64,000 bases of DNA from Frankia sp. AgB32. GTDB taxonomy: Bacteria; Actinomycetota; Actinomycetes; Frankiales; Frankiaceae. The position numbers were made by a program, and so were the translations under genes. This document shows positions 56,226 to 56,282 of this stretch, in pieces. The stretch covers positions 1 to 64,000 of the forward strand of contig NZ_JALKFX010000020.1 in the NCBI RefSeq assembly GCF_023243045.1, given 5' to 3'. The notes below the pieces were generated by a model that was not told the origin of the DNA, searched no databases, and saw nothing but the letters and a program-made list of their open reading frames with translations. How positions within the stretch are numbered: the stretch's first letter is position 1; every line of letters starts with the position of its first letter.

Positions 56226-56267
56226 TCAGGCCCCGCCGCGGCGGCTAAGAAGCAGCAGCGCATGCAT
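56226..56267 (-). CDS. leuA leader peptide ([13 protein letters not shown])
   Basis: 13 codons from ATG 56267 to TGA, with four consecutive Leu codons (CTG CTG CTT CTT). Leu-rich leader peptides before leuA are established attenuation devices in Streptomyces, and this fits that design: ribosome stalling at low Leu-tRNA would change folding of the 180-nt leader before leuA. A TAATGT box lies nine bases upstream and no ribosome site is seen, so it is probably (near-)leaderless. Confidence 0.75.
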
Positions 56268-56276
56268 CGGGAGTAG

Positions 56277-56282
56277 ACATTA
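56277..56282 (-). promoter_or_regulatory. -10 box (TAATGT) of the leuA leader transcript
   Basis: TAATGT nine bases before the leader-peptide ATG. No -35 match; the expected start point is 2-3 bases before the ATG. Confidence 0.5.

Follow-up and report, generated by a model that had tools for sequence, protein, structure and literature searches.

The DNA analyzed here (the window, a stretch of 64 kb) is part of contig C188 of genome G000 (6.68 Mb). Analysis of the window revealed a gene on the minus strand (54299..56044) that matches the NCBIfam entry NF002991 (PRK03739) with an E value of 5.7e-274. This gene, the one taken to be controlled, is certainly leuA, encoding 2-isopropylmalate synthase. 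Its best named match, in a comparison that may omit the source genome itself, is the leuA product of Frankia gtarii (91% identity), which places the window in a relative of Frankia. The genes leuB (51052-52146) and then ilvE (49904-50860) are positioned on the same strand. An ORF between leuB and leuA in the opposite orientation (52577-53977, plus strand) looks, by eye, like a gene for an EAL-domain phosphodiesterase.

Upstream of leuA, a short leader ORF is located on the minus strand (56226..56267), with its ATG at 56267, its TGA at 56226 and the reading frame ATGCATGCGCTGCTGCTTCTTAGCCGCCGCGGCGGGGCCTGA. A preliminary description of the locus had claimed a leuA leader with four consecutive Leu codons, about 180 bp from leuA and next to a TAATGT -10 box, and these claims were borne out. 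The codons CTG CTG CTT CTT occupy positions 56247..56258; they are the presumed sensor codons and also form part of the 5' strand of a base stem, P0, described below. The end of the leader stop codon lies 181 nt before the leuA ATG (56044-56042). The -10-like hexamer TAATGT (56277..56282, minus strand) is positioned 9 nt upstream of the leader ATG, and a nearly leaderless transcript is expected. No sigma-70 consensus promoter was found at the leader promoter of the window. The sequence ATCGGGTA was seen by eye to recur around the -10 hexamer in Frankia relatives (56277-56290 in the window); it is perhaps an extended -10 element or a regulator site.

Among ORFs of 8 to 20 codons (ATG or GTG start), the leader ORF is the sole one in the window, on whichever strand, to contain a run of four Leu codons. 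When the 400 nt preceding leuA were shuffled by single bases, such an ORF arose in 11 of 20,000 shuffles, and none of the 20,000 combined it with a TANNNT hexamer 5 to 10 nt before the start. Nothing but its small size speaks for a chance ORF; the shuffling results argue against this reading and the conservation of the leader across the class refutes it, and we consider its probability negligible.

Conservation of the leader among leuA loci

Scanning of genome contigs supplied 80 leuA loci; others came from genome searches (including overlapping sets of 58 and 158 genomes) and from 100 extracted stretches. This collection comprised 231 loci, of which 228 were usable; excluded were L002 and L003, whose gene is not this leuA, and L059, which has no upstream sequence. 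A leader was parsed where at least three consecutive Leu codons followed an in-frame ATG, GTG, TTG, CTG or ATT. Conservation of the Leu codons in relatives, a check named in the preliminary description, was found in 220 of the 228 loci, which contain 186 distinct leader sequences. Eight loci were not parsed (L025, L028, L038, L045, L106, L111, L124, and L211); a leader is nevertheless visible in L028 and L038, and the covariance model described below has a match at the expected place in the genomes of both L106 and L211. The Leu run consists of three codons in 108 and of four codons in 78 of the distinct leaders.

A TANNNT hexamer ending 5 to 11 nt before an in-frame ATG or GTG was present in 174 of 175 distinct relatives, compared to 13.9 expected after shuffling. 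The distances between hexamer and start cluster at 6 and 9 nt, with 9 nt in the window. Judged by this spacing, the leuA leader transcript is likely to be leaderless or nearly so.

Alignment of 179 leaders revealed a consensus tail behind the Leu run, mostly AGC YGC CGC GRC GRG GYC. Wobble positions in this tail are nearly invariant: the third codon is an Arg codon in 172 of the aligned leaders (CGC in 162, CGT in 9, and CGA in 1), and the fifth, when it encodes Gly, is GGG in 69 of 70 cases. Second codon positions vary (Gly/Asp, Glu/Gly) and change together with their partners in a helix, P1, described below. Selection on a peptide would give the opposite pattern; the tail is constrained as RNA and not as a peptide. 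An arrest peptide, or conservation of the tail at the protein level, was rejected because the synonymous positions are the fixed ones and because one clade ends the ORF after LLLTRP, SRP, or SCP. The tail has a length of 6 to 8 residues in 167 of the 186 leaders. The final Leu codon is CTT in 163 of the 179 aligned leaders, and CTT accounts for 123 of 240 leader Leu codons compared to 101 of 2,947 Leu codons in leuA (67 loci).

The distance between the end of the Leu run and the chosen leuA start has a median of 99 nt (quartiles, 93 and 112 nt). In the window, it is 202 nt. This expanded spacer is common to several, but not all, close Frankia relatives of the window; the Frankia relatives L089 and L093 have a short spacer.

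A pseudoknot begins within the leader ORF

RNAalifold, pair counts, and a covariation scan identified the 3' end of the leader ORF, CCGCGGCGGGG (56231..56241, minus strand), as the 5' strand of helix P1. Pair counts in relatives place the 3' strand at CCCCGTCGCGG (56203..56213) and reveal a second helix, P2, which makes the structure a pseudoknot of the H type: GCTGGC in the P1 loop (56216..56221) pairs with GCCAGC (56186..56191). P1 has 11 pairs, formed between nucleotides +5 to +15 behind the Leu run and a downstream CCYCGYCGCGG. The pair counts cover 175 of the 186 distinct leaders and exclude 11, namely seven short-tailed leaders, L155 (whose P1 differs in sequence, as judged by eye), L040 and L119 (with scores under the limit), and L072 (an unconvincing leader). 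In the counted leaders, 1,860 of 1,925 P1 cells are paired, and all 11 pairs are intact in 143 of the 175.

Compensatory changes are present in the 11-bp P1 helix among the relatives. The Watson-Crick counts exceeded all 1,000 permutations at four P1 pairs (168 versus a maximum of 143, 125 versus 99, 138 versus 111, and 162 versus 157). RNAalifold recovered P1 unaided from 66 diverse sequences, in which 99.0% of the P1 cells and, in a rough alignment, 72.8% of the P2 cells are paired. For P1 and P2 jointly, 82 cells in these sequences have changes on both sides, compared to 23.3 after shuffling (0 of 500 shuffles reached the observed value), and sliding the partner by one to three columns lowered the number to 18 to 37. 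In a scan of column pairs across 106 dereplicated loci, five of the six top scores are P1 pairs, and the sixth rests on two sequences. The same comparison of leader-end with downstream columns showed no covarying run that would extend P1 into the Leu codons. P2 was found in 136 of the 175 leaders, where a GCYGGC-like sequence in the P1 loop pairs with a segment 10 to 14 nt behind P1. The pairing score of P2 with its own partner is 16.66, compared to 14.90 with swapped partners (maximum of 20 draws, 15.24) and 13.56 for shuffled sequence.

The seven leaders that end in LLLTRP, SRP, or SCP (L017, L137, L140, L161, L169, L181, and L192) have a helix of 11 to 12 bp with a different sequence at the place of P1, as seen without a control; their stop codon lies within this changed helix, which has 12 bp in all but one, with 11 bp. 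A search for an alternative hairpin on the 3' strand of P1 gave one isolated pair (-1:14) that exceeded all 1,000 permutations, with neighbors that did not, and this candidate was not counted as a helix.

Rfam covariance models detected two tRNAs in the window and no match for the leader; one match was at chance level (HOTTIP_3, 7.5 bits, with a gathering threshold of 50). A covariance model made from the 66 sequences, which include the window itself, matches the leader at 56179-56258 with an E value of 1.7e-13.

Distribution of the element and its second copies

The model matches 155 of 158 genomes of the class at an E value of 0.1 or lower, 154 of them at 1e-4 or better. The genomes G067, G081, and G082 have no match and G044 has a weak match; all four are also without a leuA match at 1e-60. 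A phylum-wide draw gave matches in 11 of 119 genomes, 10 within the class and one outside, and the 20 listed of the 108 nonmatching genomes all lie outside the class. The single strong match outside the class (G279:C191:4084-4163) may be a case of transfer or contamination.

Many genomes, among the matches listed, have more than one copy of the element. The window shows no copy before its own leuB in the search with the covariance model. A total of 61 further model-match places were extracted, and the gene within 700 nt behind each was typed by tblastn. This gene is leuA-like at 15 places (at L251 it is only 28% identical), leuB at 25, leuC at 6, and a gene for a small protein akin to the allosteric domain of LeuA at 3; the other 12 places have weak matches or none of those genes nearby. 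Several of the second copies are close mutual relatives and not independent. The elements before leuB include L268:2324-2403 (-), L273:401-485 (+), L275:2310-2388 (-), and L243:3021-3098 (-), and an ilvE-like gene follows leuB within the extracted stretch in 23 of the 25 cases. The elements with Leu runs directly upstream of leuC are L235:476-555 (+), L236:440-519 (+), L237:3000-3080 (-), and those of L253, L264, and L267. The small protein is encoded at L269 (the query itself), L279, and L286 and, by similarity, at L271, which belongs to the 12 remaining places and whose product is 38% identical to that of L279. NCBIfam confirmed one example each of LeuB (L273), LeuC (L236), and IlvE (L243, downstream of leuB). 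Pfam confirmed LeuA_dimer (PF08502) for L269 (E value, 2.4e-6) and did not confirm it for L271 or L279.

Eight weak matches to a model of the tail alone (L287-L294; E values of 0.001 to 0.016) lack both a leader with a -10 hexamer and a downstream leuA, leuB, or leuC gene and were therefore rejected as false positives; another three weak hits of this model were left out.

In L257, L268, L275, L278, and L281, the recurring sequence GACGACAACTA precedes a -10-like hexamer that is positioned about 7 nt upstream of the leuB ATG (by eye). The leuB genes of these five loci have hardly any Shine-Dalgarno match, and the arrangement suggests, by eye, a second, leaderless leuB transcript.

The sensor codons change with the gene

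Among the second copies before leuB and leuA-like genes, L254, L283, and L256 have no parsed leader. Three consecutive Leu codons were present in all 6 leuC leaders and in 13 of the 14 parsed leuA-like second leaders, compared to none of the 23 parsed leuB leaders. In residues 2 to 9, at least two Val or Ile residues occur in 22 of 23 leuB leaders, 0 of 14 leuA-like leaders, and 1 of 6 leuC leaders; one or more are found in 23, 7, and 3 of these leaders, respectively. Examples of leuB leaders with mixed Val, Leu, and Ile codons are MRSVFVLIDCRGEA, MRQVLVLITCRGGA, and MLWSVRILSCRDEAR. They have the same tail behind the sensor residues, and a P1/P2-like pairing is visible by eye. The mixed codons may be explained by the adjoining gene, whose product would be a transaminase that acts on each of the three branched-chain amino acids. 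The leaders of the small-protein genes (L269, L271, L279, and L286) combine Val and Leu codons with the same knot.

Because the codons vary with the controlled gene and the knot does not, a translating ribosome is favored as the sensor over a protein or a ligand. Comparison of the leaders makes it probable that the Leu codons would be sensed in this way. The alternative that a regulatory protein (orthologues of ML1624 were proposed by Seliverstov et al.) or a small molecule binds the RNA, with the Leu codons being incidental or serving the stem only, agrees with the very conserved sequence of the pseudoknot and with the protein binding proposed in PMC1262725. This alternative is nevertheless improbable, since the pseudoknot is kept while the preceding codons follow the gene (leuA and leuC have Leu runs, and leuB has Val, Leu, and Ile codons), since the start codon, the -10 box, and the reading frame are retained, and since one clade has a P1 of another sequence.

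Predicted pairing of the leader with the leuA Shine-Dalgarno region

The Shine-Dalgarno region of leuA, GGAAGCAGGAGCGC (56046..56059, minus strand), lies within the 3' strand of P0. Structure prediction of the leader, which had been suggested as a further check, pairs this region with the leader ORF in both the minimum free energy (MFE) and the centroid structures: the ORF parts CAUGCGCU and CUGCUUCUU pair with AGGAAGCAG, with AGCGC, and with the AUG (or UG) of the leuA start. P0 comprises 17 pairs in both structures and extends into the leuA AUG. The fold of the whole leader has a z score of -2.55 (1 of 200 shuffles was as low), and in the ensemble of structures for the window, the Shine-Dalgarno core is paired with the Leu codons with a probability of 0.76.

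Across the leuA loci, pairing of the P0 strands with their own partners gave -8.64 kcal/mol, compared to -7.66 kcal/mol for permuted partners (0 of 5,000 permutations reached the observed value). With one locus per cluster (50 clusters), six draws gave 42, 0, 22, 20, 41, and 5 of 5,000 permutations that reached it. Folding predicted a probability above 0.5 for pairing of the Shine-Dalgarno region with the Leu codons in 16 of the 50 clusters. The best complement lies at the Shine-Dalgarno region in 128 of 186 leaders compared to 37.7 expected, a count that is partly circular because the starts were chosen by their Shine-Dalgarno match. Leu runs with synonymous recoding pair with the Shine-Dalgarno region nearly as well as the real ones (-8.26 versus -8.72; median rank, 0.46). 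Since the real runs pair only slightly better, P0 pairing gives no explanation for the preference for CTT. Masking the positions of a stalled ribosome lowered the mean predicted pairing of the Shine-Dalgarno core from 0.75 to 0.66 (P = 0.0008), compared to 0.72 with a control mask (P = 0.26); in the window, it fell from 0.83 to 0.77. The predicted P0 stem is supported in the genome of the window, and comparison of the sequences supports it moderately across the leuA relatives. At leuB, where 1,473 of 5,000 permutations reached the observed value, P0 is unsupported. An earlier signal there (22 of 3,000 permutations with one curation of start sites) was dropped when better curation gave this result.

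Terminator-like sites are at background

The preliminary description had called the terminator less evident and had considered a nonclassical mechanism, translational or Rho-dependent. Standard tool criteria detected no intrinsic terminator with a U-run in the window leader. A laxer scan flagged one weak hairpin (56069-56090, -8.1 kcal/mol, an 8-bp stem with one mismatch), which, together with its CTCTTTTC tail (56061-56090, minus strand), sits directly before the leuA Shine-Dalgarno region. Its pyrimidine tract recurs in close Frankia relatives; its stem does not. By the lax criteria, 5 of 12 other Frankia-group leaders examined have a terminator-like site at the same place with other stems, and the near relative L085 has no such hairpin.

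In the lax scan of the 186 leuA leaders, terminator-like sites are at background (56 leaders, compared to 54, 38, and 48 in shuffles), and sites with five T's number 7, compared to 15, 12, and 5. An enrichment in every second leader (36 of 93, compared to 20 in one shuffle) vanished when all 186 were scanned. Two leuB leaders contain no intrinsic terminator by tool criteria, and among 23 second-copy leaders (20 before leuB), 6 were flagged as terminator-like compared to 4 to 10 after shuffling. The doubt about the terminator is thus upheld, and the complementarity between the Leu codons and the Shine-Dalgarno region favors the translational option of the earlier proposal.

The compact spacing, P0, and the background level of terminator-like sites make release of the Shine-Dalgarno region the simplest output at leuA, and it is the output we favor by a little. 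Alternatively, the position of the ribosome could decide the state of the pseudoknot and thereby whether transcription terminates within the leader in a Rho-dependent, pause-dependent, or weakly intrinsic manner, without bearing on access to the Shine-Dalgarno region. Several observations agree with such attenuation: the leuB copies lie 140 to 489 nt before the gene (20 loci) and P0 is unsupported there; the spacer is rich in C (C, 0.389, and G, 0.295, compared to 0.336 and 0.353 upstream of the promoter; P = 0.0002; 28 of 175 loci testable); some site is present in 5 of the 12 other Frankia-group leaders besides the weak hairpin with its CTCTTTTC tail in the window; and transcription attenuation is the mechanism given for actinobacterial ilvB leaders in the available text of PMC10272879 and PMC13236596. 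We consider this mechanism less likely at leuA, given that terminator-like sites are no commoner than in shuffles and amount to none in the window by tool criteria, that the 3' strand of P1 has no alternative hairpin beyond the one isolated pair, and that most leuA leaders leave little room between the pseudoknot and the Shine-Dalgarno region, the Leu run being a median of 99 nt from the start. The output at leuB may differ from Shine-Dalgarno release because P0 is unsupported there and because several leuB genes have, by eye, a -10-like hexamer before their own ATG.

Discussion

According to the available text of Seliverstov et al. (2005, PMC1262725), the LEU element of actinobacterial leuA genes consists of a leader peptide, a pseudoknot, and a base stem that includes the Shine-Dalgarno box. 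The locus in the window agrees with this description in its position upstream of leuA, the ORF with the Leu run, the pseudoknot, and the predicted stem between the Leu codons and the Shine-Dalgarno region; the likeness of the pseudoknots is drawn from the text description in that paper and not from the figured pairing. The leader in the window is almost certainly the (nearly) leaderless ORF that belongs to a LEU element, the control RNA of leuA in actinobacteria. A full-text search for the name of the element together with leuA returned the 2005 paper alone. There, the element is described, in the text available, before leuA and inside one transposase gene in about twenty genomes and is regarded as a probable protein-binding site. 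In the present survey, it was found also at leuC and, with altered sensor codons, at leuB and at the LeuA_dimer-like gene.

The preference for protein binding in PMC1262725 is based, as far as its available text shows, partly on mutants of Streptomyces coelicolor. Changes in the leuA leader of that organism are cited there as having some effect, unlike classical attenuation, and the same text concludes that mutations of the Leu codons were without influence on regulation. By this account, neither the mutants studied in 1999 nor the 2005 proposal of the LEU element settled how the leuA leader works. No demonstrated mechanism at leuA was found in the literature searched, with most subscription papers outside its reach.

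The explanation that we regard as the best, with moderate confidence in it as a whole, is a LEU-element leader ORF whose Leu codons would be sensed by the ribosome and whose P0 stem would control the release of leuA. The transcript would start at or within a few nucleotides of the leader AUG. When leucine is plentiful, the ribosome would pass the Leu codons, open the pseudoknot, terminate, and depart. The RNA would then refold, the strand with the Leu codons would pair with the Shine-Dalgarno region and the start codon of leuA to form P0, and little LeuA would be made. When charged tRNA-Leu is scarce, a ribosome waiting on the Leu codons would block P0, and leuA would be translated. P1 starts at a distance of 5 nt from the Leu codons, and one guess is that it slows the ribosome just as these codons are read. 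This start of P1 and the tail of mostly 6 to 8 residues suggest that the knot meets the ribosome while it decodes the sensor codons, a geometry estimated from ribosome footprint sizes.

Related leaders have been described in other organisms. In Streptomyces lividans, a leaderless LeuL1 transcript was reported from RNA sequencing (RNA-seq), and leuL (MRFGLLLLSCRGEGL) is described as leaderless, with the same Leu run, a similar tail, and no typical terminator, in the available text of PMC8079986. The leuL leader of Corynebacterium glutamicum (MTSRANLLLLRRGGSQRS, PMC8709942) has the same Leu run and a similar tail; unlike the window leader, it is termed a transcription attenuator in the text accessible. 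A pseudoknot is not mentioned for either leuL in the available text of PMC8079986 and PMC8709942. The Corynebacterium ilvB-II motif, an upstream ORF (uORF) of ilvBNC, resembles the window leader in being a uORF rich in branched-chain codons before a branched-chain gene and differs from it in having an intrinsic terminator hairpin and acting by transcription attenuation, according to the part of PMC10272879 available. A classical attenuator of the trp/ilv type has an intrinsic terminator with a U-run, which tool criteria did not detect in the window leader and which is at background in the relatives. The polycysteine ORFs of mycobacteria (Canestrari et al. 2020, cited in the available text of PMC13236596 and PMC9094748) are likewise leaderless uORFs with amino acid codons and are assigned to translation attenuation, with cysteine instead of leucine. 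Transcription attenuation of ilvB1 in Mycobacterium tuberculosis is reported, and translation attenuation of cysteine genes is cited, in the accessible text of PMC13236596.

The finding is real, and it is ordinary in kind as a LEU element; the wider family with exchanged sensor codons is not ordinary. No report of the pseudoknot element at leuB or leuC was found in the literature searched, which did not extend to most subscription papers. The LEU element may be one instance of an Actinomycetes-wide device, a proposal to which we assign an even chance. In such a device, a leaderless uORF would end in the first strand of a fixed pseudoknot and carry swappable codons (a Leu run at leuA and leuC, Val/Leu/Ile codons at leuB-ilvE, and Val/Leu codons at the LeuA_dimer-like gene), the knot would hold the ribosome over these codons, and the outputs would differ, with Shine-Dalgarno release at leuA and leuC and something else at leuB. 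A covariance model and a list of further branched-chain amino acid genes that carry the element are now provided. The comparison separates an RNA part, the tail and the pseudoknot, from a code part, the sensor codons, and thereby suggests a sensor based on the ribosome, one amenable to study in common laboratory strains.
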